Positions 6,181 through 61,870 of a stretch of DNA of 64,000 nt are shown here, piece after piece (positions within the stretch are counted from its first letter, which is position 1; each line of letters begins with the position of its first letter). The position numbers were made by a program, and so were the translations under genes. The stretch lies in NCBI GenBank assembly GCA_030141605.1, contig JAQGDQ010000104.1, positions 555,610 to 619,609 of the forward strand. Reading direction: 5' to 3'. This DNA is from Tubiluchus corallicola. Taxonomy: Eukaryota > Priapulida > Priapulimorpha > Priapulimorphida > Tubiluchidae. The notes under the pieces were generated by a model. That model saw only the letters and a list, made by a program, of their open reading frames with translations. It was not told the origin of the DNA and did no database searches.

Positions 6181-6393
6181 GTTTTAACTTGAAAATCTGA
6201 AGTTGTTAGCAATATCCGACACACAAAGTAGAACTATCTGAAACAAAATCCTAAAATCGTAAATTAAAGCAGACTAAATCATCTGCTTGTAAGTGTAGTC
6301 ACTTTAGCTTTGCATTTGACAGCAGTTAGTGCGCACAGAATGTTATACTTCCATTTTTAGAAGAGGCGACGAAAACGTTGCACAGGCATAATA

Positions 6394-7521
6394 TTGAATA
6401 TTGATAAGGGGAAAACTACTTGTGCTATATTTTTAGATTTATCGAAAGCATTCGACACGGTACAACATGACATTTTGTTATATAAGTTATCATACTATGG
6501 TATCAGGGGACGTCCTCTTGCGCTTTTCACGTCTTACCTTACTAATAGGAAACAGTTTACGTCTATTGACTCATCGGAATCTAAACTTGCTGATATAACC
6601 TGTGGTGTCCCACAGGGTTCTACATTGGGTCCATTGTTATTTCTTTTATATATTAACGATCTGCCATCCTGTTCGCAATTTAACACCAGATTGTTTGCAG
6701 ACGATACAAACTTATTTTTATCACACCAAAATATCAAAACATTAGAACATTCAGTAAATGTAGAACTGGACAATATTAATAAATGGATGCAAGCAAATAA
6801 GCTATCGATAAATTATAAAAAAACAAAATATATGTTAATTGGAAACAAGCAACATAACAATAGTTTAAACATAAATATGGGAGGTTGTACTATTCAATCT
6901 ACACAAGAAATCAAATATCTTGGTATATTTATAGATAGTAGAATTACTTGGAAAACACATGTTCAGCATATAGTCAACAAAATTAGCAAATTAAGTGGAG
7001 TATTAGCTAGAATACGACACTACATAAATGTAGATGCACTACGGCTCTTATATTCTTCTCTTGTCATGCCATATCTGAGTTATGGCATTCTCGCCTGGGG
7101 TAGTGCTTCAGCATCGGTCTTAAAATCATTGGTTTCTAAACAAAACAAGATTATCAAACTTATAACATTTACTAGCAAAAGGGAACATGTAACACCTTTG
7201 TATTTGCAACTAAATCTACTAAAAGTTCATGATCTGTATAAATTAGAATTGCTCAAGTTTGTACATAAATTCAAAAATAATTCACGTCCAGATCTCTTCA
7301 GCAATTATTATACTTTAGCATGTCACATGCATCACCACTCTACTAGGTTTGCTACAACCCAATCTTATTTTATTGAAAGATTCAACTCATCTAAAGGCCA
7401 GAATTCTTTAAAACACCAAGGATCTTTGCTGTGGAATTCATTACCAGACCAGTTAAAGTCCAGTAACTACAAAAAGTTAATTTTAAACTATAAAAAACAA
7501 CTTATTGCAGGATACAAATAA
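6394..7521 (+). CDS. LINE reverse transcriptase, 5'-truncated ORF2 fragment
   Basis: About 375 residues of an RNA-dependent DNA polymerase used for target-primed reverse transcription. Landmarks in order are AIFLDLSKAFDTVQHDIL (RT motif A, Asp), GVPQGSTLGPLLFLLYINDL (motif B), FADDTNLF (the catalytic Asp-Asp pair), KTKYMLIG, and YLGIFID. The C-terminal QGSLLWNSLP segment is typical of CR1/L2/Jockey-type ORF2. No ATG opens it: the frame begins with a TTG and the upstream protein is absent, so this is a truncated copy and not a host gene. Confidence 0.88.
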   Translation: MNIDKGKTTCAIFLDLSKAFDTVQHDILLYKLSYYGIRGRPLALFTSYLTNRKQFTSIDSSESKLADITCGVPQGSTLGPLLFLLYINDLPSCSQFNTRLFADDTNLFLSHQNIKTLEHSVNVELDNINKWMQANKLSINYKKTKYMLIGNKQHNNSLNINMGGCTIQSTQEIKYLGIFIDSRITWKTHVQHIVNKISKLSGVLARIRHYINVDALRLLYSSLVMPYLSYGILAWGSASASVLKSLVSKQNKIIKLITFTSKREHVTPLYLQLNLLKVHDLYKLELLKFVHKFKNNSRPDLFSNYYTLACHMHHHSTRFATTQSYFIERFNSSKGQNSLKHQGSLLWNSLPDQLKSSNYKKLILNYKKQLIAGYK

Positions 7522-9748: not shown

Positions 9749-10204
9749 CAGTTAACCTTGGATATAAGGGACACCACGGGAGACACCACTTATATCCGAA
9801 GTTCAGTCAGACCGAGGGCGTATCTAGACCTGTATATTTCTGTACTTTACTCATATTTTTATGGATTATTGCTACACATTCAGTGCAAACGGTATGTAAG
9901 AAGCTCCTTCAGTGATGCGAGATGTATGTGATCACGGAAACCGAGCTGTTCGAAGGCCGAGTTTGCGAAAATTGAGGTTAAAAACTGATCAATTTCGCTT
10001 TGATCACATGGTCCCTTATATCCGATAATTTACCAGGGTTTCTATTAGGCGGGACGTAAAGATATCGTCCCTTATAACCGAAAGTCCCTTATATCCGAAG
10101 ATTTTTGCATAGGAGAAATGTTAAGAAAAATCGGGACTAGTGTTGATTGTCCCTTATAGGCGAGTGTCCCTTATAAGCGAGTACCTTATACCCGAGGTTG
10201 ACTG
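9749..10204. mobile_element. MITE C, copy 1 (CAGTTAACC termini)
   Basis: A 456 bp element flanked by TA. Its ends are CAGTTAACCTTGG and CCGAGGTTGACTG. Both ends carry several copies of a CTTATATCCGA/CCTTATAAGCGA phrase. A second copy lies inverted at about 61141-61629, and a partial one at 17762-17925. Confidence 0.85.
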
Positions 10205-10424
10205 TATCACCTTATAATAGTGTATCTTTGTACAACATAAAATCAATAGATCCTGGAAAATAATTCCTAAAGTAACTGTTTAACATTACAGTACATCAGT
10301 TATTTTAGTGGTTAAAAGGACTTAGTGTTTCTTTGTAATATTATAAACAGCAGAAACTTGCTTCAGAAATTGTTTACAAATTGTTTAGAACATAATAAAA
10401 AATGCACACAAAATACACACATCA

Positions 10425-12074
10425 TCAGTCGTAAGCAAGTTTAAAGCTTCTTTCCTGTTCCTTCCGTCTGGTGTCGTACAGTTTTCCAACTTCATCCACT
10501 TTCCTTCGGAGCAAGGCCGTGTTTTCATCTACCCATTGCAATGAATCCATATGGGCATTCAGAATTTTTGTAATCTGCCGCATTGGGTTGTCTGCATCTT
10601 GGCTTTCATTTGTTCTATTGAGATGGTCAATGATTTCTTTTAGATCACTCACCATTCTCTTCAACTGTCCATCTATGTTTTCAGCCAACTGATATGTGTG
10701 TTCCCTTTCCAGATCTGCATGCTGGGGGTAAGAAAGAGCAGGCTGCTCTTCAACAGATTTTTCAAGATTCACCAGCATGTTTTCCAGCTCCTTCTGTTCA
10801 GCCAAAATAAAATCTAGTTCATGATCTAGTCTTTGTTGATCTAATTTTACTTTCTCTACATTTGCATTCAACTGTGTGATCTTTTCACCATTATCTATGA
10901 GGACGCGATCCCATGTGTTTATCAGAGTGGCTTGATTCAAGAAACTTTTTTCCTGTTCTTCCAATTCCAAAGTCCATTTATTAATGCATTCTTCCAACTG
11001 TCGGTAGTTCATTGCTGGTGGAACAGTGGCAGTAGATGTTACTGTGGCTGTAGTGAGAGCAACTGTGGTCGTAACAGGTGCACATGTGACAGCAAAAGTC
11101 AATGCAACTGTCGGTTTCGGTGCGGAAGTTGTTTGAAATGTGGGCTGCACAGTGGGTGCTGTAGATGTTGCCTGCAAGCTCAAAGGTTGCACTTCTGCTG
11201 CTGGAGTGGTCTTGGGCATTCCATATGTAGCTACTGTAGTGGATGCAGTGACTGATACGTCCTTACTTGCCGCAGTCGGTAGACCTATTGATGTTGTAGT
11301 CTCTAACCTAAGACCAACCGTAACTGGCGTACCAGTAAAGCCGCTTCCCAATTGGAATCCTGTACCTGCTGATGTAGATGGCGTACTTAGCAAAAAACCA
11401 GTGTTAGGTGCACTCGCAACAGTGGATGTAGTAGAAAAAGCATTCTCTGTAGCTCCTGTAGTCTGAGCCGAAACGTTTGGTGCCACAGCTGCTTGGTTAA
11501 AATTTAGTGTAGGTGCTGCCTGAATAGTTTGTAATCCCAATGCTGAAGTTCCTGGTGCCACTGCAGTAGGAGTGACAGCTGAACTAGTAAAACTGAATCC
11601 AGTACTTGGAGTTTGCTTGATCCCAAATGAAAATCCACCACTATCTGCTGGTTTGGTCGGTGCGTTTCCAAAATTGGAAGAAAATAATCCACCAGTAGGT
11701 TGTGTAGTTGAAGAAACACTGGCACTGCCCAATGCAAACCCAGTAAAGCTCTGAGTTGCTGGTTTTGTCAAACCAGCTCCAAGTTGAAAACTCTGAGTTG
11801 CTGGTGTTGTCAAGCCAGCCCCTAGTTGAAAACCACTAACACTCTGTGACTGGACGTTAGCTGGTTTTGGAGCACTGAACTGAAAACTACCAGGTGTTAC
11901 TGCAGAACTCACTGAGGTACTAGCGCCAAATTGAAAACTAGTTGAAGAAGAGCCAATGCTCTGTGCTGCTGGCATTGTACTGGCTCCGAACTGAAAACCA
12001 CTAACAGCACTGGTAGTCTGTGGAACTGTTGAAGGCGTTCCAAATGTAAACCCCCCTTGCTGTTGTGAAGCCAT
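10425..12074 (-). CDS. NUP62: Nucleoporin 62
   Basis: Central-channel FG nucleoporin of the nuclear pore; with Nup54 and Nup58 it forms the coiled-coil trimer that carries cargo-binding FG repeats. The 549-residue frame is one exon from ATG to stop. Residues 1-350 are a Ser/Thr/Ala-rich disordered region with FQFG, FTFG, FSFG and FQLG repeats, followed by a T/V-rich linker. From residue 355 the conserved coiled coil begins (YRQLEECINKWTLELEEQEK). It contains WDR.LIDNGEKI, RLDHELDFIL, ENIDGQLKRM, KILNAHMDSLQW and the end RRKEQERSF. Length is close to human NUP62. As I recall, the mammalian coding sequence is also a single exon, so intronless structure need not mean retroposition. A 5' UTR intron may exist. 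No related gene competes for this identification. Confidence 0.96.
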   Translation of the reverse strand: MASQQQGGFTFGTPSTVPQTTSAVSGFQFGASTMPAAQSIGSSSTSFQFGASTSVSSAVTPGSFQFSAPKPANVQSQSVSGFQLGAGLTTPATQSFQLGAGLTKPATQSFTGFALGSASVSSTTQPTGGLFSSNFGNAPTKPADSGGFSFGIKQTPSTGFSFTSSAVTPTAVAPGTSALGLQTIQAAPTLNFNQAAVAPNVSAQTTGATENAFSTTSTVASAPNTGFLLSTPSTSAGTGFQLGSGFTGTPVTVGLRLETTTSIGLPTAASKDVSVTASTTVATYGMPKTTPAAEVQPLSLQATSTAPTVQPTFQTTSAPKPTVALTFAVTCAPVTTTVALTTATVTSTATVPPAMNYRQLEECINKWTLELEEQEKSFLNQATLINTWDRVLIDNGEKITQLNANVEKVKLDQQRLDHELDFILAEQKELENMLVNLEKSVEEQPALSYPQHADLEREHTYQLAENIDGQLKRMVSDLKEIIDHLNRTNESQDADNPMRQITKILNAHMDSLQWVDENTALLRRKVDEVGKLYDTRRKEQERSFKLAYD

Positions 12075-13493
12075 AACGTGATATTATTCGGCAGTCAAGA
12101 AGATGGCATAAAAATCTAAGAGCGACAGAATTTCTACAGAAACATTCTTGAAACAATTCGCGCAAAAAAGCGACGAATACGACAAGCAATAAGGGAAATC
12201 GACTCAGATCGTTAAAACGCACACTAAACGGCGAGGATTTCTACGTTCCCATCACTGACTATCTGAGTGATACCGCGTGACATACGTGGTCTGCAGCAGC
12301 CAGCTGTTAGGTTGTTGCTTTCAAAGTGGTGGTTAGTGAGCGAGTCTTATTCGTCACGTTTGTGACGATGATGATACCACACGAAGAGATTCATAATCCA
12401 TTAGGATGTCTCTAGATATTGATTATTAAAAGCATCGGCGTCGATTGATCAGGACAGCTGTTTAGCATTTTGACAACCATAACCGATGGTAACAGTGAGC
12501 ACGTTGTAAGATGAGTTGACGTCTTTTATCATTTTTCGCGCTTTGCACATTTAATCGTATCAGCCTTGGTTTAATTTGATTTATAATTTAACTTATAGAA
12601 AAACATGAAATACAGTCACAGAGCTTAATAATGGCAACGATTGAAGTTGTTCACATATATGGCATGGCAAACTTCATAAATGGCTAAACTCTTTTCAGTT
12701 TTTGGATTCTGTTGGTAATATCTAAATTTACGTATTCGTACATCCACATGTCATTGCATACTGGATGAATGGTGTTAGCTTACATGCGTCAAACATGCTC
12801 TGACTGCTCCTAAACTTGGTACTTATTTTATGATCAGCTTCAGTGTAATAGGTTAAACTATAGAATAGTCATATAGCCTGCCCATCATGCTGAGAATTTT
12901 CAGAATAGACAGCTTTAGAATAACTGAGATTCAAGTTTGAATGACAAAGTCTCCAAATTGGCACAGGTGTGTTAGATTTAGATATGTATAGACTCCCCCA
13001 AAAGAAATAGCTGGAGACAGTGTTCCAGTTAAAAAGTTAAAACCACATAAAAATATTTTTTCTGGCTCTCACAGTCACCCATCAAATTAGTAATCAGATC
13101 CAATGCAGCTTAACTTTTGTAGCTACTACAATTGCTCAGTTATTCTCCTCACCACAGTACAAAAAGCTGGAAATCTTACACAGCATTTTGTTTAAGAGAG
13201 CAAAAACGAGCTAGTAGCTGACAAAATTTTTGAAATTTGACTATTTTCCATTTTTGAATGCCAAAATTTTGACTAGTTTCCAATTTTTGGTAATTGTGGA
13301 CTATGCGGTCTGTGCTGTCGTGACATACCCCAGGTTGAGAACTTCTGCATTTCACAGACTTGTCCAGGTTTACCATTATGTGTTCCAAGTAAAAAACTGT
13401 TCATGTGTACGTGGTTTTTCAGGTTTAATTTAGCAATGTGATACTGACGTGCTTTTTTCTGTGTTGCCTAGCAAACACAAAATACATTGAGAC
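12075..13493. promoter_or_regulatory. Divergent promoter region of NUP62 and the Eph-like gene
   Basis: 1.4 kb between the ATG of NUP62 (minus) and the ATG of the Eph-like gene (plus). It should hold both 5' UTRs and both promoters. GC is raised at 12100-12400, next to NUP62, as expected for a housekeeping promoter. I cannot place a TATA box or transcription start with confidence. Confidence 0.45.
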
Positions 13494-14991
13494 ATGTTCT
13501 TTTCTTTGAGTTCTTCCAAGATGTGGTGGTGCATAATTCTGTTTAGCTTGGCAATTTACCCTGGTTTTATTTTTGCCGTTGAATATGGTAAGTCGTTAAT
13601 CTTTGTATATGATTAACTGTGCTTTTCTTCTGGACATCAGTAAACTATATAATGATGGAATAAACCCATAACTCATTAAATCGTTTAATCCTAACACTGT
13701 TAATTAAAGATACGAAAAGTGACAAAATTGGAACCAGGCACCCTTGTGTTACAAACTTGAAACAGCTTTGGTTGCTGGACACAGTCGTGTGCGATCAGTG
13801 TCTGTTCTGAGTCAAACCTGATGACTTGCCAATTTTTATAGCATTTGAAAATATTTGTTTACTCACAGTAAGATAATTAATAACCAATTTTGATTATTTT
13901 TTTTCATTTAATTTTAAACCTCTTCAATACTTGTCTATGTCTCTAGCTCTACTATCTCTTTAAACACCTACAAACTCTGCAAAACAATTTATCAAGCATT
14001 GGGTTTATTTCATTGTATTTATAATTCACGTAATTTATAATAGTGCAATTGAAATTCTATGTACAATTAAATGTTAAATTAATTTTGTTTTGTGATGACT
14101 TCTTAAAACTGTTCCATTGATTTAGTAATACTGCAATTGTGTGTTTCAAATAAACTCTTGAAAAACCACATTCTGGGATACCATATTTTGGAGAATCGTG
14201 TGAAATTTCACAAGTGGAGATATAGGATCATAGGAGTCACCCACCAGAACCTAAATTGCTGTCTTTGTTTAGATATTAGGACCTAATCTTGTCCCATTAC
14301 GCACATGAAGTAACCTTTCTTGGAATGCTAGATACTTTGAATGGGGCGAATAATAGGAAAAACAATGAGCTGCTGCCAGTAATATGGGGTGATAACCTGC
14401 AGGTGATATCCCCCCCCCAGAAATTGATAAAAAAATCTGTAAGCGATGAGAGTAATAACAGTCATATCTTACATGAAATCAGTGTTGTGTAAGATGGCAA
14501 ACTCATTTACTGAATATTAGGATTTTAATCATTTTTAGACCATCCAGACTCTAAAAGTGGTCAAACAGACATCACCATTATCACCAGTGTAAGCCATTTT
14601 GAGCTACAGAATGTTATGTATTATATTTTGTATCATTTTTGAACAATTTCATTACTAATATGTTACATACTGACTGCAGCTTAATATGAATGGTTAGCTT
14701 TATGACATGTTTTACATGTGTACATGATTTAGGAACGCTACTTGATACTGCTGCTAGCTTTTCTAAATGGACATTGTATGATAAGGATGGAGACGGCATT
14801 GGCGTGAGTACTTTAATTTATGTATTCGTGTTTGTTAGTTTTTGGGTTCCATAATGTTTGCATTTTATTTTGCTTGCCCATGGGCACTAGGCAGTGTCTT
14901 TGAATTTTAGTTTAAATTTTATTTATTTATAATTGTTTTATAATTGTGGCTGTAAAAAACAGAATATATATATATACTATTTAAAGTGATT

Positions 14992-15032
<41 letters not shown>

Positions 15033-15358
15033 AAACCTTGAATGCTTTTTATAGTCTCTTAATGATCATTTATTGATTTCAGGTATTTTGTTTTACTTTC
15101 CCCCTTAAATAATAATTGCAAGACTATAGAAGGCATTGAACACTGAACATTTATGTGAAAGATTGCAAGTCTCAGGAGACCGCGCCATATTTTCAGTAAA
15201 CTTTTGACTTGCATATACATTAGTGCTAAGCCTAGTCTTCGAGCAAGCTACCCTTATAGCACTGTTAATGTCATACATAGTCCTTAGCTGGGAGTTATCC
15301 GTTATCTGGTTTCATAGGTGGCTTGCTGCTCTTTCACATGTGTCTCTCTCTCATGCAT

Positions 15359-15455
<97 letters not shown>

Positions 15456-18400
15456 CTCTCTCTCTCTCTCGTTCTTTTCTTTCTTTCTAATTATGACTAT
15501 TTTTCTCGCGAGAATTTCCCCTTGTAACTGTGCTAACATGTAATAAACAAACAGTAAAACAGGCTTACAGGACTGCGGAAACGTTTACAAGAGATAAACA
15601 TGTGGTAAAAAACATTTTGTCAGAATAACATCATGAATGGGAATGCAGGATGCAGACTGTATCTGTCTTTTTATGGCAACTATTTTTAAAAGATTTTTTA
15701 GTAGGAAACACTTCCTGTTGTGTGCATACACAACGTAATTTTGCTGACCCGAAAATTTGTTGCTTGCACGTGGTGAAAGGCAGGGCTAATATTCTGAGCC
15801 TGGGCATTAACACATGATACATATTTATATTACTTCATTGGAAAAGTTTGTTTCAAACGTTTCTGTCATTAAGGTATAATAAGCTGCTCGGTTTTATAGC
15901 ATTGAACAACCATAAATGCTAAACATTCTTCTGTAGGCTGTTCAGTATGAGAATTACATGTTAACAACACAGACACATTTGTAAACTTATTCTAGAATGA
16001 GACTGTGTTTAAAGCCAGTTATACGTGCTAAAGCATTGCACTTTTAGTTAACAAGCAGTTTAAACACATTGGTAAAAAAGCACTGTGTGCTTTCTTAAAT
16101 ATATTTATAGACTGATAGATTGTATGACACTTTTCCTGTATGGCAGCTACTCATCCATTTACTATCCAGGTTCAGTATCTGACCGTGGTTGACAAAAGAA
16201 TGCCTTGACTAGTCAGCTGTTCTCCTGCTCCCAAACTATAGCCTCATTTATTTGCATAATTTTCTAATCTACTTTAAATTGTAACAAATAAAATGCTCTT
16301 CTTAATTTTTAGTGGGACGCTGATGAGACCACAAAAAGTTTTCTCACTCGAAGCTTATACCATAGAGGTCAGATGAATTGGCTGATTTCGCCTTACATAG
16401 ACCTGCATGGTGTTGGGATGGTTGACCTGCATTTAACAGTGAACTTTACTTCATGTCATTTTGACAAGTTACTGTTTGACAATTGCCGAATGTCTCAAAC
16501 TGTTAAACTCTTGAGTCAGAATCAGACGTCGTTCACCCTTCTCAAGAACCCGTCAACGCTGACCGACGATTTTGAAGCGGTAGCAGAAGTTCTCCCACAC
16601 GACTATGATGAGGCCACGGAAGTTAACATTTACGATGTGGCGACTCCGATGGCGACAACCGGTATGTACGTCGCCTTAGTTGACTATGGCACCTCCGTAA
16701 CTTTGAGCAAGATTACGATCCGACACAAATATTGTAGCCATGAGATTCATAAGCTTGTCATATTTGAACAAAGTGTGCCATCTCTCGAACCGCACACGGG
16801 GCGGTGTGCAGACAATGCCGTATCTGCCGCACCTGTGCAACGCACTTGTAACAGTGAAGGCGATTGGTCGCCACTTCGAGAGGAATGCAAATGCAGAAGT
16901 CGTTTCGTTGGTGTTGGAAATCGATGCATTGGTAAGACAACGACTGAGAAATGGTTGAGATTTTGTCTTAAAATACATTTAGAGATGACTTTAAATTTTG
17001 AAAAATGTTGCTTTGTCTCTGAACATTATTTGTGGATGTACCTGTGGTCCTCTTGCCCATTGCTAGGCCACTCCTTGTTACCTGCTACTCAACTGCATGA
17101 CCAAGTACTCAATTATGGCTGACAGTGCAAGCAGTCGGAGAGTCCTGTTCGAGCCATGTTCCAAACGAACAAACTTCTCTAGTTTTAGGTTTATTGAGTA
17201 CTTGATCAGTAAGTAGAGGATGACCACCTGTCTTCATTGTATGCTGAGGTTATGAATACAGACCCAATACCATCTATCCTTAAGCAGTTATGTATGGCAC
17301 CATTACTTTTCTTTTTCTCTTTTGCACTCATCCACCCATATACCAACAGGAGCTGAATAGTGCATAACTGCATGAACAAGCTCTTTTTACCCTAACTAAA
17401 CTACCCTTAAATCTCCAAAATATGAGTTTGCAAACTTTACTTTTGTCACAGTGGTAAATAAAGGCAGCAGAGTTTGTAAAAACTAAGAATTTGTTCTGGG
17501 TAGTACATGTATTTTTGTAGTTTGTAGAGCTTGTAATGAATTAAATATGACAAATCAAGGCAATAATCATTATATTCATTTATGAATGTACATGTATTTT
17601 TGTACTACATTGTAATACAAATGACAATTATAAATGGGCCACTGCATTACAAATGAATAACCCAATATACTATAACTATAACTATAACCCAAGGTTGACT
17701 GCAATATTATTTTTATATCTCTTTGTTAAAGATTTTTAGCATTTAATCTTTTGTAACTAACATAGTGCATATTACGCCGAACCTGAAGATATCGTCCCTT
17801 ATAACCGAAAGTCCCTTATATCCGAGTACCTTATATACGAAGATTTTTACATAGGAAAAACGTTACGAAAAATCGGGACCGGTATTTGTAGTCGCCTTAT
17901 AAGTGAGTACCTTATACCCGATGTTGACTATAATATTATTTTTATATCTCTTTGTTAAAGATTTTTAGCATTTAATCTTCTGTAACTAACATAGTGCAGA
18001 TTAAAGCTGTGCATTCACCAAGCAAATTTGTCTTCATGGAGATTTTTGTTTTGCAAATTTTTTCTGTAATATCCAACTCTTGTTACAACAAAAAACGTCT
18101 AACCATTTTGTCATAATCAAATAAGAAACATCTGTCCACAAAACCCTATAACTATAACCTATACCAAATTGAATTAGAAAAGTCGGCTAATTTTTATGTT
18201 TCTGATGTTGTTTTATATTCACTCTTCAATGAATTATTTACATGTATTTATTGCTAATAGTGATTGTCATTTCAGCTCAGAAGTGTACAGCGTCAACGTG
18301 CAAAAATGGCGCCACCTGTTCTGAGAATTCTGGAACTTTCGTTTGTCATTGCACTGAAGGATACACCGGACAGATGTGCGAGTCAGTATGTGAGTAACTG

Positions 18401-21400
18401 ACATAATTTTTGCTGTGTAATTTTCTGTAGACTGCATTTTTAGAGCTCTTTTAGCTCGCTGTAGTTTTAACTTCTTCTGTTATAATGAAGGATTTATATA
18501 TGTAACGCAAAACGGTTAAATCCAACTCATCCTAATGTTTGTGTACATTGGTTTATCTTAATTATGCAAGCAACAAAGGCGAAGCTGATTTTGAGAAATA
18601 AAGTGTGTGGGTTCACAAACGCATGCATTGTACTACGAATGATACTTATTGGTGATGGGGAAAACAAATTCTTAAAATGAAAATAACAGTTAACGCCCAC
18701 TTAAGCAAAGACATGGTTTTTATTCAGACAACGTATACTTTTATTTAGGTGGATTGCTGCATGAGTATGATCGTAACTGGTCAAAACGTTGTAGGTGCTG
18801 CTTGTGTCTGAATAAAAGCCATGTCTTTGCTTAAATGGGTGCTGGCTTTTATTCTCATTTGAATGGCATTTGTACATGCAGTGGGAGCTATAAAAATTTT
18901 CTAGCTTTTTCTTACATTATACGTTGCAAAATTTTGTTAGATTTCAAGCAAGCTTTTTTTATTTGTTGCATTACATGTACTTTATTGGCATATGTTTGTA
19001 CGTCAGTTCTTTATCTTGCTTTCCCTTTCTTTTCATTCTTGTTTCTCCTCTTTATGTTTCTTAAATCTGGAATGTTTGTACTGTGAAATCAAAAAACATA
19101 GTTTGATATTATTTAAGTTACTATGGTTGTAACTTGTTCCATCATATATGTCAAGCAAATACTTTAGTGTAATTACGTGGATGTATTTACAATGTTTTAC
19201 AGTAAACAGTGGACCCGATGAAATTTCTATCGTATTCGGTCACTCGAGTCGTGAAGGAGAATGCGTGTCCGAGGGTCAGCGGGTCAGTTTCCGCTGCATA
19301 GCGTCCGGCGGTTACGAGCCGATATCAATCGAGTGGTCTAGGGATCAACATGCACTGAATGTGGGAAACAAGGGCAATGTGGTAAAGCAGACTGATGGAA
19401 CTTACGTGAGTGGTAAGATTTTTTTAATTGATTCTTATCAGCTGCTAAAACGTGGCACCATTCCTGCTTTACTGTCCTGTGCCTCTAAACTTCTTTTTAC
19501 ATTTTGACTCGCCGAAACTGGGATTTGTCATTCACTGGGGCTTTCTAAATGATGATGTCCGTACCGAAAACCAGAAGTCGGTACATCAGCAAAAAGATAT
19601 CCTCTAAAATGAGCCACTGAACCAGCAGAGGCATCTTATCCATGTTATGATGCATATACATCCTCCCTCTATGAGGTAAGTAGACGTAATCAGTATGTCG
19701 AGTATAAACACCTGGAGTGAGTATCGAACCTAGGCTGTAGCAAACTATTTAAATGAAACGTAGATGTAAGACTGCTCGAATATTCGCTCCATGACAAAAT
19801 TGCCAAGTGTTATCATCGCTTTCATATGTTCAAGATTACATTTAAATCTGAGCAAAATATAGTGTGTATCCCATAATTCTTCGGGCAGAACTTTGGACCT
19901 ACTGATTATCACGCTGTGGAAATGCACTAAAAGAGTCTTTAGAAGCAATATATGAACAAATATCGGAACATTTTTGACATGCTTCAACTCGTTACTAAAT
20001 TTTGGGTTCTGTGTTTACTAACTCAGACGACTATTCCATTTATTTCTGTGCAGATGTGTTATGTACATACACATTTCCCTACCTGTTAAATTTGGTCTTG
20101 CCACTTCTGTCTTCAGTCATGTGACCAGGCAGTTGGCCAGGTATGCAATTCAAGTTGATATGGCGTGAATGTTGTGAATTGATATCTATTGTTTTTTTGC
20201 AAGTTATAAGCGCCAAAACTCAGGGAGACCACATGTAAGTGTCTAATTATATTTATTGAACTGCTTTATACAATTAGGGGTATTTTGCTGTTTTTTTTTG
20301 TATAATTATAGACAAAAATCACGTAACATAATTAGGTAACTTACCTGTATCAAACTTGTGTTTTTCGCTAAAAACTTCATGCTGTAATTTGTTATTACAG
20401 ATAAAATGACAATTGCTGCATATTAAACATATTTGGATGTTCTCGAGTTTAAATGTAGTACAGATGTAGCAAGAACCATTATTTCTCTTTCACCGATACA
20501 GTTTTAAGCCGATTATTAGTTGCTACAGTCAGCTGTGTTGCAGTCGCTGTCACGTTTCTTACAGCTAATACTCCATGATTGTTTCAGTTATGGAATCTCC
20601 GACGCTAACACTGTCGTCCCAGCATCATGGTTCAGTCATGACCTGTGAAGCCTACAACAGCTTCAACATCATGACTCCACTAGAAGCCAATCAGACACTT
20701 CAAGTTTGTTGTGAGTTTTGCATGGTTAATTACTCTCTTATATTTACTGTGTTTCATTTTTTATGTTTATTGTTTTTATTCATACTCATCTACTGGCTAG
20801 CAACTGATTCAGATATACAAGTCACAAAGTTCGTTTTTGTGCAGAATATTTAACTGACACAAATGATAAAATAAGTAAATTGGCGCAGTTATAAGCTGTA
20901 TGTACTTTCATAATGGAATCTGTTTATACCGTTTACCAAGGCTCTAGGTGAAACAAACACATTTAAGTTTCAGTTTCCTTTGCTGAACATATTGCAATGA
21001 TGCTGGGTATTCGCTGCCAAGGAGTCTGATTGGTCGCACATCTAGTCAATTTGTTTCTTAATATTTCGGATGCCATGTAATCCAGGTTCAATGCCAGGTT
21101 GATGAAAAACTTTATAAAGACAGACAGAAATTTGTAGAATTGCCAGTAAATTTGTCCCGTGTGCATCATTTATTTTTATTGTTATTAGTACTCTTTGTTG
21201 CTAAAATGTTACATACAATGTTTATTTATCCATATTTACATTAAAATTTGTATTTAAGCAGTTTTAAAAACTAATAAAAGCAATAATGTCGTATACTTGA
21301 AACCAAATTAAAACTATATACAAATGAATTGGAAATTTTACAAAATGCGCACAACATAATCCCGGTTATCATGCTAGTTGTGTCTACGGAACAGGTGCAG

Positions 21401-24400
21401 TGATGGTAAAAACACCTGTCCATTCACCTGCTGAATCGACAAGACCATTCCATATCAGCAGTTTTACACGGGGTAGCAAAGCTGATATGCAAAGGCTTCA
21501 TAATGGATCGAACTATCACATTATAGGGGTAGGGGGTGAAAATAAATGGTGTTTTACCGTCGTTACAATATGAAGCATTTACATGAAACACGAGCTTTGT
21601 TGTCTGTACAGTGGAAGCACCAACAAAGCAATTTTTTTACTTTGAGAGAAGAAATTTCAAGTCTGAGCATATGCTGACTACTTTTTCTTTAACTGTGTCT
21701 GTTAACTTTAGTTCTACTAAGGGATTTGATTTAAACAGCACCAGTGATACAATTGGACTTTGTTGGTGGGGGCAGGTCAGGAATTTGACCTCTGAACACT
21801 GCTGATGACTTTTTAATCTTTACATTTTAGAACAAAACAAATTGTATGACTCTCTAACCTTAAGCATGAATAATAAAAAATAGTGACATATGGTAAATTG
21901 TGATTACTTAATATTATATTTATTCTTGTTCCAGTTGGCCCTAAAGAAACTGATGATATACACATCCAGCATAAAGTAATAGCTGACGGCATCGAAGATT
22001 ATGTACTTGTGCATTGCTCGCTGGCAAATGTGTTTTCGAATAGTTTCAAATTTGAATGGAAATTTAATAACAATGAACTGCCGGAATCAGCAAAACAGGT
22101 ATGTCAGTAAACATCTGGGCCATCTAGATGGGTTTTGCCCTAATTTTGATGAGTTATGGATAGTATGAATAGTGTGTTGTACATTACATGAGTTTCTTTG
22201 ACAGTTCGAATTGGGTAGATCTAATTCTATTGCTTTTCCCTGAAGAAAAAAATATAAAACACTATCTTAAACTGCTAATTTTATTCTGAGGTTTGAAATA
22301 TTTTGACATAATTTACCTCTTTTTGCTTTTGTGCTAAGAGAGACGAAGGTCAGAGAAGCTTAGTTGAGATTTTGAAGTCGGAACTTGACAAGAGTATTAT
22401 GAGCGGGAACACTGCAGATTTCTCCTGTGCCGTTAAGAATCTCAAGGTCGTCGGAGGAGAAACTGTCTCCCAGTATGCAACCTATGATAAAACAGTAGTA
22501 GCAGACAGACATAAATCAGGTAATAATTGTTAATTAGCAGGTGAGTGTGGAGTTAGTGTAGTTGGTCTGAGTTTAGTTCTAGTGGGGGATTTGATTTAAA
22601 CAGCTTCAACAATGCAATTTTTGAACTTTGTTGGTGGGGAGGGGGGAGGAATTTGATCTCTGAACACTGTTGATAACTTTTTAATCTTTACGTTTTAGAG
22701 CAAAACAAATTGTGTGACTCACTCTCTAACCTTAAGCATGATTAATAAAAAAATAGTGACATATTGGTAAATTGTGGTTACTCAATTTTATATTTTTTCT
22801 ATAAAATAGAACTACATGTAATCACACTTGTTTTTGCATAATTCTTTTCAACTGAAATTGTCTAAAATTATTGTCTTATAGCTTTGGCATTCACTGCCAT
22901 AGTGACTAAACTTGTCATTTTGCAGTAGAATAGATTTTTACCTTGTCTGTATTTAAACAAAGGTAACATTTTAGTAAGAATGTAATGTAGAAGAATGGTC
23001 AGCTTATTGCTCAGCAGCCAAAGTTAAGCAATGCAGAGCCTCCTCTGTAAATGAATAGGTGCCTGCTTCTATACTTCATTCGTCTTATAGCCTGTAGCTG
23101 TTTACTTCTTTGAGGGAGAATGCTTAAGCCAAGACTACTTTTCTATTCAGTGCGACATTAATCTTTGATAACGAGCTAAGTTTTGCATGTGCCACATTAA
23201 ATCCTGGATCTGGATCTCAACTTGCTGAGTGGTAAACTGTGTAAGAAAACAACACTTTGTTCTGCATATTGCAAAATTTTAAGCTAAGGTTCTAATTTAT
23301 TGACCTTTGTTGCTTTGTAAGAAACCTCTACTTACCCTGTTTGCCTTCTTTTACTTTCTAAAAATGCGAACGGGATGATTTAAATACAAGATGATGACAC
23401 AAAATATAATTTAGTTTTTTTATATGTGTACATTTTATATGTCAAATCAAAGTGGGCCAAGCAACGATCCCTGAAGAATACCTTTTTTGTATTCATCAGG
23501 TTTAGTGTTACGCTGTTCCCGTTTATTCATTTATTACTCTCAGATAGAAACTGAAAAGTTTGGGACTGCCTCACCCAGCTAGTGATTGATTGCTCTTGGT
23601 GGCTTCATTATTGTTCATTTGTTTATTATTTACAGACAAACGTTGGAAGGTTTGGGTTGCCGTGCTCGTGTGTGTTGTTGGTGTTGCACTTGGTATCATT
23701 CTCGTGGTTTACTTTGTGAGAAAGTAAGTGTTACTTTTGTTGTCGAGTCTTCACTGTCAAAGTTCAAAAGGGCTCACAGTCCAAATCTTAACTGAGTTTG
23801 TTATTACCCAAGCCTGAGTACAAATACGAGTCTGTAAGTTTTATTGATAGCTAAGAAGTAACTACTAGATATACTCTTGGTGCAGCTTTAGTAGTTACTG
23901 AAAATCGTACATTTACTAAGCCATACCCCCTATCGAAGACGCGGTTCTTAATTATCATTGAAGCCTTAGTTCTTAGTAGAGCCATAGTTCTTACTGAAGG
24001 CTTAGCTTCTACTAAAGCCATGGCTTTTGCTGAAGCCATAGTTCCTATTAAAGCCACAATTATTACCGAAGCCTTAGCTCTTTCTGAAGCCATAGCTTTG
24101 ACTGAAACTGTAGTCCTTACTGATGTCATAGTTCTTACTGACACCATAGGTCTTATTGAAGCCAGAGTTATTACTGAAGCCATGTCTTACCAAAGTCACA
24201 GCTCTTACTAAAATCATAGATATAAAATTCAATAGAAGCCATGAATCTTACTACAGCCTCAGTTTTTATTTAACCCGTAGCTTTTACTGAAGTGACATCT
24301 TATAGTGAAGGTATAACTTTTACTGAAACTGCAGCTCTTATTGAGCCATTGTTCTTACTGAAGCCATGTAGCGCCTATTAAGTTGATAAAAATGTCAAAC

Positions 24401-24712
24401 AGACAAATTAAACATACTACCTACAACCAGGAGCTGATGAAAGTGTCACACAGACAAATTAAGAATACTACTTACAATCAGGAATTGACAAGTTGCAGAG
24501 ATGATTTTACCATACTACTGTTGCATCGGAAAATTAAATGTCTTACTTGCAACCAGAACATGATGCAAAAAAACACCGCAGAGACAAATTAAGCATACTA
24601 CTTGTAACCAGTATGTTAATTCTTACTTTGCTTCCACTTTCTTTTTTCTAGGAGCAGAAAGAAGATCTCGGATAAACCAGATGTGGAAACAGAGAACGTG
24701 CCACCAAGCTGA
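13494..24712 (+). CDS. Kinase-less Eph-receptor-like protein (Eph LBD, EGF, two Ig, TM)
   Basis: Exons: 13494-13587, 14733-14803, 16313-16931, 18276-18389, 19203-19412, 20588-20710, 21935-22098, 22339-22519, 23636-23723, 24652-24712. All phases join, giving 574 residues. Order: signal peptide (1-28); Eph ligand-binding domain (about 31-198; landmarks TLLDT, WTLYDKDGDGIGW, NWLISPYID, VDLHLTVNFTSC, GMYVALVDYG, ITIRHKYC); Cys-rich segment as in Eph receptors (CNSEGDW, ECKCRSRFVGVGNRC, 219-260); one six-Cys EGF (265-298); two Ig-like domains with C-W-C cores (about 303-410, 412-520); transmembrane helix (about 531-552); basic tail of about 22 residues ending VPPS. There is no kinase, SAM or PDZ motif, and no kinase exon in the next 3 kb. 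Ig domains stand where Eph receptors have two fibronectin III repeats. It probably binds an ephrin-like ligand at the cell surface; the function is inferred. The short-exon-then-619-nt-LBD-exon structure resembles vertebrate Eph genes. Confidence 0.88.
14993..15031. repeat. (AT)n microsatellite
   Basis: An uninterrupted AT dinucleotide run in intron 2 of the Eph-like gene. Confidence 0.95.
15359..15470. repeat. (CA)n-(TC)n microsatellite
   Basis: About 47 perfect CA units followed by 9 TC units, in intron 2 of the Eph-like gene. Open frames of repeated Thr-His or Val-Cys here are artefacts of the dinucleotide repeat. Confidence 0.98.
17690..18000. repeat. MITE C fragment with tandemly duplicated end and flank
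   Basis: Two near-identical 75-80 bp blocks (about 17693-17769 and 17925-17998) each start with GGTTGACT or TGTTGACT, the end of MITE C, and run on into the same flank ending AACATAGTGCA. Between them lies a MITE C interior (17774-17920). This looks like a tandem duplication with a period near 230 bp that included a MITE end. Confidence 0.75.
18691..18844. mobile_element. Fold-back element with 40-bp arms
   Basis: The arm at 18691-18730 is nearly the reverse complement of 18804-18844 (shared core AAGCAAAGACATGG). The loop is about 73 bp. It is a small MITE-like hairpin in intron 4 of the Eph-like gene, just after the EGF exon. Confidence 0.75.
21705..21925. repeat. Duplicated intronic block, copy 1
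   Basis: About 220 bp in intron 6 of the Eph-like gene. It recurs with moderate divergence at 22568-22800. Shared text includes GGGATTTGATTTAAACAGC and CTCTAACCTTAAGCATGA. Confidence 0.85.
22568..22800. repeat. Duplicated intronic block, copy 2
   Basis: Second copy, in intron 8, same orientation as copy 1. The two copies lie on either side of exons 7-8, which encode the second Ig-like domain. Confidence 0.85.
23920..24370. repeat. 18-bp minisatellite
   Basis: More than 20 degenerate units of GCCATAGTTCTTACTGAA in the intron before the last exon of the Eph-like gene. The length of the unit, a multiple of three, leaves long open frames on both strands (23851-24183 minus, 24020-24211 plus); these are not genes. 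It is followed at 24393-24600 by another degenerate repeat containing CAGACAAATTAA. Confidence 0.9.
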
Positions 24713-27700: not shown

Positions 27701-28089
27701 TGAGTACACCCCTGTACGTATCCATTATATCCTGTTAATCACGTTAGACACCTTTAGTTCAAACTGTTACTAGTACCTTAGAAGACCACTGAAACGGAAC
27801 AGGGTACAGCCAAATGGACAAAGAATTTACTGCATTAGTATACCGTGCATGCAAGTCAGGTGTAGAAAATTTTTATTATTATTTCTTTTTCCAACTATGG
27901 TGTAAGTTTGGAGATAACTCAGTTTGCAGAATATTTTCCAAAAAGTAGGTGCGTTAGTCTGAGGACTTAACACAGTATAGTACAAAGTATATACATACAG
28001 TATAGTACAAATACAACATAGTACAAATGCTTTATTTTAGTGTTTAGTGAACACAGTAAAAACTGCAATAAAACAATAAAAAGCGTAAA
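24713..28089. other. Intergenic spacer between the Eph-like gene and the C-type lectin
   Basis: 3.4 kb of AT-rich sequence holding the 3' UTR of the Eph-like gene and the lectin promoter. A (TAAAC)n run lies at 25079-25108. A degenerate repeat of about 28 bp (phrases like CAATTGTGCATTAG) lies at 26030-26240, with one related unit near 24950. I found no kinase, SAM or other exon on either strand. Confidence 0.6.
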
Positions 28090-28934
28090 ATGGATAAGCT
28101 CTTCAGTCTTCTGGTGCTGACTGCATATTATGTAGTGTGGTCGAATGTCATTTCTGCACACCTTACATCGCCTGGCCAACCAAATCCATCAGAGCAAAAC
28201 ATGCAAGATTTGCTGACCAGAACAGCCAAAAAAATCCACACCTTGGAAAGAGAACTGACACAAATAAGCCATGCTGTAGATAAACTGCTTCAGAAAGTGG
28301 AGTTGATTGAGCGGAATACTGCTTGCGGCTGTGGATTTGAGAAAATAGAAGACGGTTGTTACAAGGTGTTTAGTGGAGATGCTAAGCAATCCTGGGAAAA
28401 AGCAAAGACCACATGTAATGCACTTGGTGCCAGACTGGTTTCCGTAGAAACAGCCGAGAAACTGGCGGCAATGTATCAAAGGCTCATTGTGCATGGATAT
28501 GCGTGTAAGTTTCCTGTTAGAGGCATTTTGTGGTTTTTTTTTACCTTAGTTTGGTTTAGAAAAGGTACATCCTACAGATGGCAGAAACTTTGTAGCATTT
28601 GCATTATAAAGGGGTACAAATATCAACTTTATCTATTATTTAAACAAAAAATGTCACAGTTTGCTGGACTGATAAGCTCTTAATACCCTAACGAGTAATT
28701 ATTTTTTCCCTTTCAGTTTGGTGGACAGGAGGTAACGACATAGAAGAGGAAGGTTCGTGGGTTTGGGATGGTCTGAAGACTCCATTTAATTATACACAAT
28801 GGGCTGGAGGGCAACCAAATGATGTAAACAATCAAGACTGCTTGCGGATTAGCCCCCATAGCAGTTACCCGAGGACATTGATATGGTGGGACGATCCGTG
28901 TGATCAACTTGCTAACTTCGTTTGTGAAATGTAA
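28090..28934 (+). CDS. Secreted C-type lectin with coiled-coil stalk
   Basis: Two exons, 28090-28504 and 28717-28934, phase 1, giving 210 residues. A signal peptide (1-23) is followed by a short linker, an amphipathic heptad region (about 38-76) likely to drive oligomerisation, and a C-type lectin domain (79-210). Six canonical cysteines are C81-C90, C109-C208 and C180-C200, with an extra C79 that could link subunits. The core has WVWDG (153-157), Q171-P172-N173 in the position of EPN/QPD, and W196-D197-D198 in place of W-N-D. The calcium/sugar site is therefore partly kept, but specificity cannot be read: QPN is neither mannose-type EPN nor galactose-type QPD. It has no membrane anchor. A defence or adhesion role is possible; none is shown. 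Confidence 0.92.
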
Positions 28935-32500: not shown

Positions 32501-35500
32501 GATTGCTAAAAAACAAAAACTTTTACGCTCATGCCCCTGATATGAAAATATAGTTCATAGATTGCTAAAAAAACAAAAACTTTTACGCTCATGCCCCTGA
32601 TATGAAAATATAGTTCATAGATTGCTAAAAAACTAAAACTTTTACGCTCATGCCCTTGATATGAAAATATAGTTCATAGATTGCTAAAAAAACAAAAACT
32701 TTTACGCTCATGCCCCTGATATGAAAATATAGTTCATAGATTGCTAAAAAACTAAAACTTTTTGTCTTGTTTACTTGTAATTTACTTCCAGTTGTTTAAA
32801 ATGATCCTAAATTAATGTTTCTTAACCAGAGAAACTGTCATGTTCTGTACTGATGGTATCATGTATGATGGAGTGTTTCTTTTTTTGTAATATTGCTGCT
32901 GTGTGTTTAGTTGGTGTAATGAATTCAACAAATTCATGTGTATAAATATACCCTGTAGCAGGAAATCTATAATCTCAAAATTTTTCACGGTTGCTCAGTG
33001 TTATACATATCATATACAGTGTTTGCCCTGGTTTTGTGGCGTATACCTGGCCTGTGATTCTAAAGGCTTGTTGATTTTTAGCCTAAATACAAAGTAGAAG
33101 TGCGTTAACAGGTTTACTTGTTCAGTATTAAGGCTTAGAAATTTTTGCAGTATGAAGCTCCTTACAACCAGGATACACGTAATTAATCAACCCCTGTGAG
33201 AGGAAGTACAGTGACGGTATTTCCTTGAACTTTGTGTAATCAATCAACATTTTACAGTGTAACCGTATTAGGTATTGAGTATCTTCATTCATAGTACCAC
33301 ACACGTGGCTGGTGTTATAATTAGTTTAAATTAGGTAACCCCTATCCTAGTTGTCAATGGAGACTTTTGTTTAATATCGGCCTCTAGCTCAGCAAACTTT
33401 AAATTGTAATTTAACTAGCATGATCTGTGGTTGGATAAAGATCAGAGTGATGTAAAGTTTTTTTTCTTGTGGTTTGTCACTGCTGATAGGAAATTGTTCT
33501 GTTCCTATTTTTAGCATCAAGCATAAGAAGTTCTACTATTGAGTCCCCGGTAGAAGAGAGGTACCACAAGTACGACACGCCTTACGATTCGGAAAGTTCG
33601 GGTATGTGAATTATTCAGCTAGAATGCTATATTTTGCATTAGTATATCAGTCTTGAATTTTCATATCTTTATCTCTCTTGTGTGAACCAGCTTTAGATGT
33701 TACCCTTACGAAATACAAAATTTGCTCGGTCTCCTTAATGAGTAAGGGTTAGCATTCTCTACCTGAAATTGAGTTTGAATAGAATCAAATTTGTGACTTT
33801 CAAACTAGAATCAAACCAAATGTTGAGATTATGAACCACCTCTGTAAGTGAGGTTTTTGGAATCACACTGAAATAGCATTTACCGTGTTTCTTGGATAAT
33901 AATGACCTTATTGCTGATATTGAGCCTGGCTTTTTGCTAGATTTTCTTGTACTAATGTTAACTAAAAGGGTGGCTGATTTTCTAACCTCTAGGGTTTTTT
34001 CGCCACTCTTTCTCTAACTATTAGTGACTTATTTTCTATGTACTTGATTTTTTCATGTTTACAATCTTGAGATAAATAAATTTATCTGGCTGTGAATCTG
34101 GCTTAAGATTTTTTCATAACACTGCTTATGTGCCTTTGTTAGTTAAATTTTAGAGTTTGTTAAAGAAATTTAAAAAAATCGAGTTGATGAGGTTGTTAAT
34201 GTGATGACTTGGAAGTCACAGGTTTTGCACGAATTATGAATATATATATTCATCTAGCATCAAATTGATTATCCATTTATTACCAACTCCTCTCCCTAAA
34301 TGAAGGTTTATTCCTGGTTGCTCCCATAAACCTGTCAATCAAATGATTTTAGGTCGAATTGCTTCGTTTCACATATAATTTAATGGCCAAATGTTTATGT
34401 TAAATGAGGAAATTGTACAAATATGTCAGTAGAACAAATATTTATTAGGAGTACAAGATATTAATGCTTTTTACTAAACATTGACACAAAAATGCCTTTA
34501 CTATTTTATTATATTCTTTCGTTTGAATTTTCAGCCCCAATTCCTCCATCTGAAGACACCAGACCTCCCGAAGAGTATGACGAGCCCTGGGAATGGGTGA
34601 AAAGACGCACAATCGCAGCATCGGAGGCTGACGCTAAAACTTCCAGTCTCCGGGAATCTTGCGCATTGTCTCCTGAATCTCCGAGCAAGAGCAGCGCCAT
34701 CTCGTCCAAGTCTTTTGAACTATTTACTCTGTCAAGTGACGCTAAAGTAGATAGAGATAGCGATTCGCATTGCTCGCTTCTAGACGAGATTAATAAAGCA
34801 TTACCTAGCGATTCTCCTCAAACAGAGGTTCCCGCATCAGGTTTTGAAGGTGCATTTGATGACAACGCTGTTTCTGTTGCCTCTCCTGATATTGTCAAAG
34901 AAGAGGAGACGTTCGATCACTTCTCCGAAAGTAAGCGGGTCGAATCATTTGAACAGTTGAGTATTACACCAGAGCAAGAGTCAAAGTCAGCTTTGACGGA
35001 ATCGAATTCCGAGTGTGACTTGGACAACACTGAACCACAGGAGGCAGTGCATTTAGAACTTGAGTCCTCGGTACAAGGCTTGGAAGACTCGGTAGACTTG
35101 ACGGACAGTCCTGTTTATAAGGACAAGTCGTTATTGGATAAAACTGAGTCGCAGGCCGTGCAATCAAACCTCGAGGAAGAGATTTTGGGGGATCAAGCAG
35201 TACAGGTTCAGCAAACAACACACATGGAGGTAACCAAGCCTGTAGAGACTGCTGCACCCAAGGTGGCGATCACGAAGCCGCCTCTCAAAAAGAAGCCTCC
35301 CGTGAAACCTCCTCGCAAAGACAAACTCGCACAACTGAGATCTCAAACCAGCGAGACTGCTGAACAGGGTAAAGCGGAACCGGTTAACGGGAGCCCTGTT
35401 CCTGTCTCTAGTGAGGAGCGGAAGGGCTCTACTACATCCTCTCAAACAGAAGTTAAGTGTTCCCCAAGAGGGAGTCCCGTTTTTGAGAGCACATCTCGCG

Positions 35501-44455: not shown

Positions 44456-53724
<9,269 letters not shown>

Positions 53725-55084: not shown

Positions 55085-61870
<6,786 letters not shown>

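Follow-up and report, generated by a model that had tools for sequence, protein, structure and literature searches.

Eph receptors are described as having a fixed domain order. Their overall architecture is reported to be unchanged within Metazoa (PMC6993872) and identical in all bilaterian Ephs (PMC6485061), and in published surveys the head seems Eph-specific in vertebrates. We analysed a 64-kb stretch of DNA from the priapulid Tubiluchus corallicola (the window), located at one end of contig C2085, and describe a predicted gene on its forward strand (positions 13494-24712). Its 574-residue product has a head with an Eph-type ligand-binding domain (LBD) and a cysteine-rich domain (CRD), followed by an EGF domain, one clear and one weak Ig domain, a membrane helix and a short tail, with no kinase. 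Our best reading of the sequence is that this domain architecture is new.

Several described systems resemble the window gene in part. Canonical Ephs (EphA and EphB and, in the same animal, the gene on contig C44 and, by its head, that on C28) share with it a signal peptide, the Pfam domains Ephrin_lbd and Ephrin_CRD, the boundaries and phases of exon 3, the C105-C115 cysteines and a single helix. Unlike them, the window gene has EGF and Ig domains in place of Ephrin_rec_like and FN3, and it lacks the kinase and SAM domains, two cysteines (C70 and C188) and some of the D-E region. Its head is 19% identical to each of C44, C28 and EphB2 in our first alignment, which paired the exon 3 tryptophan of the window protein with a later tryptophan of the canonical heads; the residue counts given below use a local alignment instead. 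Kinase-less isoforms of the EphA7-T1 type are also membrane proteins that carry an Eph head and whose tail is short. However, they are splice forms with the full canonical ectodomain, FN3 included (PMC7717530), whereas the window gene stands on its own and encodes a different ectodomain. The Eph-LBD protein of Salpingoeca urceolata has a membrane region and no kinase, but choanoflagellate receptors differ from the window protein in having FN3 repeats and heads that keep the disulfide cysteines (PMC6485061). Flavobacterial ADIWIN_0470 has Ephrin_lbd outside an Eph receptor, but it is bacterial and uncharacterised, and the authors invoke horizontal transfer (PMC6993872). The EGF and Ig modules, the similar size and, in fuhc-tm, the short tail also suggested the Botryllus fuhc proteins. 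We rejected this identity on the different domain set, as fuhc-sec is a secreted protein that has Ig plus two EGF domains and fuhc-tm has three Ig domains and a transmembrane segment (PMC12065747, PMC3691228); neither of these two papers contains the words ephrin or Eph.

The kinase-less choanoflagellate protein, the frequent incomplete gene models of basal animals (both PMC6485061) and the bacterial Ephrin_lbd (PMC6993872) argue against full novelty. Searching the open-access literature by titles and the starts of abstracts, we found no Eph-head protein with EGF and Ig domains named, and such proteins may be described elsewhere or lie unnamed in databases. The 574-residue protein was also compared with ~5.8 billion protein sequences, which yielded 5321 candidates and none at 1e-3. 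A profile with the heads of C44, C28, EphB2 and a divergent relative on contig C1477 added yielded 5975 candidates from the same sequences and again no match. Considering that this profile, with its canonical heads, was matchless too, we take the database to be silent on animal Ephs and draw no evidence of rarity from it.

Reading of the window DNA bore out the original prediction of ten exons that join in frame to 574 residues. All nine introns are bounded by GT and AG, their donors and acceptors were rated acceptable, and the G+C content is 36-51% in exons versus 32-36% in introns. Exon 1 (13494-13587) contains the start codon, a second in-frame ATG at 13521 and the signal peptide, and ends in phase 1. 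Exon 2 (14733-14803) encodes the first part of Ephrin_lbd (residues 32-55) and ends in phase 0, while exon 3 (16313-16931, 619 bp) encodes the remainder and Ephrin_CRD (residues 56-261) and ends in phase 1. The EGF-like domain is a phase 1-1 module in exon 4 (18276-18389). The first Ig domain is split between exons 5 (19203-19412) and 6 (20588-20710), and the weak second between exons 7 (21935-22098) and 8 (22339-22519). Exon 9 (23636-23723) encodes the transmembrane helix and exon 10 (24652-24712) a basic cytoplasmic tail and the stop codon. Between exons 3 and 9 the modules meet at phase-1 borders, with EGF equal to exon 4, Ig to exons 5-6 and the Ig-like domain to exons 7-8. Matches to the gene elsewhere in the window did not exceed chance level, so no further copies were found there.

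Pfam matches to the protein were judged against the curated cut-offs. Ephrin_lbd covers residues 33-196 (1.6e-9; 38.6 bits, cut-off 27) and Ephrin_CRD residues 209-249 (4e-6; 27.2 bits, cut-off 27), as expected from the Eph ligand-binding domain and Cys-rich follow-up originally proposed. The EGF domain (residues 265-293; 1.2e-5; 25.9 bits, cut-off 21.5) and the first Ig domain (Ig_3, residues 319-393; 3.1e-7; 31.2 bits, cut-off 30) also exceeded their cut-offs. A single membrane helix is predicted from hydrophobicity at residues ~533-553, with a Kyte-Doolittle mean of 3.1 across 21 residues. The tail behind it, RKSRKKISDKPDVETENVPPS, has 21 residues, close to the 22 or so claimed before, and no tyrosine. 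It ends in VPPS, which is presumably no PDZ-binding end. FN3, kinase, SAM and Ephrin_rec_like domains had no Pfam match in the protein at E<=1.

That the head is related to Eph receptors, also part of the original prediction, is supported by structures in PDB in addition to Ephrin_lbd. When the whole protein was searched with phmmer, Notch1 came first (1.1e-12) and Delta-like 1 next, both through the EGF module; EphB2 was third (7s7k, residues 38-273, 1.5e-11) and was followed by more Ephs. The head alone matched EphB2 best (9.7e-10), with EphA2 and EphA4 next. Gene structure agrees with these matches and had not been considered before. The intron ahead of exon 3 is in phase 0 and a Trp codon opens the exon, which ends in phase 1 a single codon past the last CRD cysteine; exon 3 of C44 (685 bp) and of C28 (676 bp) has its ends at the same places. 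Since these boundaries and phases are common to canonical-type genes, we conclude that the head derives from a gene of the Eph type.

We determined how many such heads the animal has by searching its genome (343.5 Mb, 2344 contigs), the only genome searched. Ephrin_lbd was found at four loci, C44 (175.2 bits), C28 (172 bits), C1477 (51.2 bits) and exon 3 of the window gene (37.4 bits), and Ephrin_CRD at the same four, with 32.4 bits for the window gene. The four thus comprise two canonical-type genes, the window gene and its divergent relative C1477. At C44 we also found Ephrin_rec_like (1.1e-6, above cut-off), FN3 below its cut-off (1.7e-4; 22.2 bits, cut-off 25) and kinase motifs at 196206 and 197931, ~27-28 kb after the head; by these sequence features C44 is a canonical Eph. 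C28 leaves its contig and is therefore canonical-type by its head alone. Four exon-sized matches to the ephrin family (PF00812), of which one reads over a stop, lie on contigs C77 and C570, and we read them as two putative ephrin genes.

The closest relative of the window protein, ranked among the 76 of 950 candidates that were scored, is C1477 (1.1e-32, 31% identity over residues 21-289), a gene missing from the original prediction; C28 (6.3e-7) and C44 (9.2e-6) follow at a distance. A blastp comparison of the two gave 1e-37 and 29% identity over residues 18-288. The similarity extends as far as the EGF region; C1477 shows an EGF-like cysteine pattern there but no Pfam EGF match. The two proteins are further alike in their signal peptide, LBD, CRD, two lost cysteines and a short loop. 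C1477 differs from the window gene in that its head lies in a single exon and its later exons lead to a tectonic-type DUF1619_N domain. At C1477:268753-278526 the exons after the LBD-CRD-EGF-like head can be linked in frame with no intervening stop (ten exons picked by eye, 867 residues) and reach DUF1619_N (1.7e-14). An open reading frame downstream, at 279518-280549, matches TCTN_DUF1619 (3e-16) and is not joined to this chain. C1477 is possibly a fusion of an Eph-type head to a tectonic, or it may be two adjacent genes.

A phylogenetic analysis of seven heads (IQ-TREE, LG+G4, 200 standard bootstraps, unrooted, with EphA4 and EphA2 lacking the N-terminal part) separated the window protein and C1477 from C44, C28, EphB2, EphA4 and EphA2 at 100% bootstrap. 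With so small a tree, no root and long branches, this split fits an old branch and fast change alike. It is conceivable, at a tentative level, that the two belong to an ancient branch of Eph-type heads that is separate from every canonical Eph, this animal's own among them. Such a branch would be a mobile recognition module that lost C70-C188 and was fitted to EGF, Ig-Ig and a membrane helix here and to a tectonic domain at C1477. Eph heads would then lead a life beyond ephrin-kinase signalling.

The heads of both genes have changed on the side where Ephs bind ephrins. Two disulfides of Eph heads, C105-C115 and C70-C188 in EphA2, are described as invariant, choanoflagellate heads share these cysteines, and the ephrin interface consists of residues 35-41, 52-70 and 151-168 (PMC6485061). 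The EphA5 equivalent of the second pair, Cys102-Cys220, links the E-F and L-M loops (PMC3782497), and the D-E and J-K loops of EphA4 enclose the G-H loop of ephrin (PMC2832735). The window protein has the first pair as Cys103 and Cys113, and C1477 has it too. At the C70 and C188 positions, the window protein has Arg68 and Ser183 and C1477 has Asn and Glu, whereas the other five aligned heads have all four cysteines. The distance from the exon 3 tryptophan to the C70 position is 13 residues in the window protein and C1477, versus 20 in EphB2, 23 in C44 and 24 in C28 (and 19 in EphA2, if W52 in the numbering of PMC6485061 is that tryptophan). The D-E interface region is thus 6-11 residues shorter in these two proteins. 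As the D-E and J-K loops are among the regions of Eph heads with lower conservation (PMC6485061), loop length alone would be weak evidence. The loss of both cysteines in two genes together with a common short loop nevertheless suggests a shared ancestor and a rebuilt binding side, and makes classical ephrin binding doubtful.

The original prediction that the gene lacks a kinase was supported by scans for five kinase and SAM motifs, in which two slightly differing pattern sets were both run on all regions. None of the five was found in the window, which extends to the contig end, or in the 30 kb around C1477. None was found in 35 kb of C28 either, where only 13 kb lie downstream of the head before the contig ends. 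As a control, 80 kb around the canonical gene C44 contained three of the five (DFG, WTAPE and SAM). The gene's own stop codon and tail, the C-type lectin gene 3.4 kb downstream and the absence of all five motifs together make an overlooked kinase unlikely.

We suggest that the window gene probably encodes a non-catalytic recognition or adhesion receptor, in which a rebuilt Eph-type head sits on an EGF-Ig-Ig stalk. The product would be a type I membrane protein translated from a single mRNA. Its first three exons (signal peptide, LBD and the start of the Cys-rich region) would come from an Eph-type gene, and phase-1 introns would join this front to the EGF module, two Ig modules, the membrane helix and the short tail. 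At the cell surface the stalk would hold the head off the membrane, where it could bind a partner, either in the matrix or on an adjacent cell. With neither a kinase nor a tail tyrosine, Eph-like signalling would be impossible and any signal would have to come from partners, clustering or competition. Because the ephrin-facing side is rebuilt, a divergent ephrin or a non-ephrin is a likelier partner than a classical ephrin. Of the roles originally offered, a decoy, an adhesion receptor or a co-receptor for ephrin-like ligands, the architecture favours adhesion or recognition. The other two are weakened by the loss of C70 and C188 and the missing D-E residues, while the domain order, the lack of a kinase and the Eph kinship stand.

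Several observations weigh against this interpretation. Recognition or adhesion is the most likely role, and it is drawn solely from the architecture. The second Ig domain (residues ~411-525), which the original prediction counted as equal to the first, is sub-threshold (best match C1-set, E-value 0.0098; 16.6 bits, cut-off 21) and is suggested by its position and a Cys-Trp-Cys pattern seen by eye. No convincing counterpart of exon 2 was found in C44 or C28. The motif scan by itself is no proof that a kinase is absent, since HRD and GxGxFG were unmatched in the C44 control, where an exon border seems to split HRD. AlphaFold2 models of window exon 3 and of the C1477 head were weak (mean pLDDT, the predicted local distance difference test, 59.5 and 63.4). 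With Foldseek they had 76 and 77 PDB matches at E<=0.001 (best 5.1e-9 and 1.9e-14), and the best 50 in each case were all Eph entries or Eph-containing complexes. The TM-scores by query length were 0.37-0.49, with root-mean-square deviations up to 12.9 A. Given the weak models, the low scores and the canonical Eph rows in the AlphaFold2 alignments, these fold matches are supportive at most. Lastly, the ephrin-family exons lie on two contigs of the same genome, and the window head keeps conserved residues (Trp44, Trp56, Gln75, Asn77, Trp78, Tyr174 and Asp179, identified by eye), so that it may retain some ephrin binding.

These last observations would fit a decoy or co-receptor, whose head binds the animal's ephrins and which, being kinase-less, competes or heteromerises with canonical Ephs and turns repulsion into adhesion. 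Canonical-type Ephs and ephrin-family exons share the genome with the window gene, and the head has retained the C105-C115 pair. There is also a precedent, as kinase-less EphA7-T1 binds full-length EphA7, reduces its phosphorylation and has been proposed to turn repulsion into adhesion (PMC7717530). However, EphA7-T1 retains the FN3 repeats (PMC7717530), which the window protein lacks. Considering in addition that C70 and C188 are both gone, that the D-E interface region is shortened and that the head is so divergent from C44, C28 and EphB2, we regard a decoy or co-receptor as rather unlikely.

The gene model could also join two genes or transcripts by mistake, one for a secreted LBD-CRD-EGF protein (exons 1-4) and one for an Ig-Ig membrane protein starting inside intron 4. 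Intron 4 has an in-frame ATG and a hydrophobic stretch just upstream of exon 5 and AATAAA at 18597 and 18811, and reading through exon 4 meets a stop after two codons. Such errors have been described, since the Botryllus candidate cfuhc was first one gene and later two (PMC3691228), and an apparent excess of novel domain combinations in lancelets was tied to gene-prediction errors (PMC4967905). Conversely, the exon 4 donor (seven of nine consensus positions) and the exon 5 acceptor are usable and both in phase 1, in line with the phase-1 borders of all modules from exon 3 to exon 9. As the clearest signal peptide, judged by eye, is also that at the protein start, we consider such misjoining improbable. 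An ordinary Eph receptor seen only in part, or an Eph pseudogene in decay, would explain the Eph-like head, CRD and exon 3 boundaries but is strongly disfavoured, as each of the ten exons is open and in frame, the gene supplies a membrane helix, tail and stop of its own, the protein has no FN3, kinase or SAM domain, the window has none of the five motifs, and the C-type lectin gene follows on the same strand.

The phase-1 module borders are what would be expected had recombination in phase-1 introns fused the first exons of an Eph gene to exons for EGF and Ig domains, and the architecture may have arisen in this way. Exons 7-8, which encode the second Ig domain, are flanked by a direct repeat of about 220-229 bp on the forward strand. 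Its copies in intron 6 (21707-21926) and intron 8 (22572-22800) are 85% identical and were the only two in the genome in a search that skipped very common words. This repeat may be a trace left when the surroundings of the second Ig module were duplicated locally. Two further repeats were observed in the gene. A degenerate 18-bp minisatellite of ~14 copies lies ahead of the last exon in intron 9 (23959-24209), and a repeat in intron 3 (17687-18003) has diverged copies at 61138-61312 (minus strand) and 10043-10206 and looks like a dispersed element.

The gene has varied neighbours in the window. Upstream are a reverse-transcriptase domain on the forward strand (RVT_1, 6361-7521, 5.4e-23) and, on the reverse strand, an intron-free frame of 552 residues with FG-like repeats and Nsp1_C (10425-12083, 5.4e-31), which we take to be Nup62-type. 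Downstream, the C-type lectin exons (28072-28934, forward strand) have a Lectin_C match of 8.3e-7 in the second exon. They are followed by forward-strand reading frames with repeated YD-x-PWE-like motifs (34465-39013), which had no Pfam match in the three tested and which presumably resemble SHB-family adaptors. A PhyH (phytanoyl-CoA dioxygenase) exon lies at 50718-50966 (1.5e-18). Among RNA genes, Rfam gave one weak tRNA and ARAGORN none.

Surveys that require a kinase would overlook genes such as this one. If our interpretation is true, the Eph head has been reused by exon shuffling in animals, and the window gene would offer a naturally occurring case in which to learn what such a head can bind once freed from kinase signalling.

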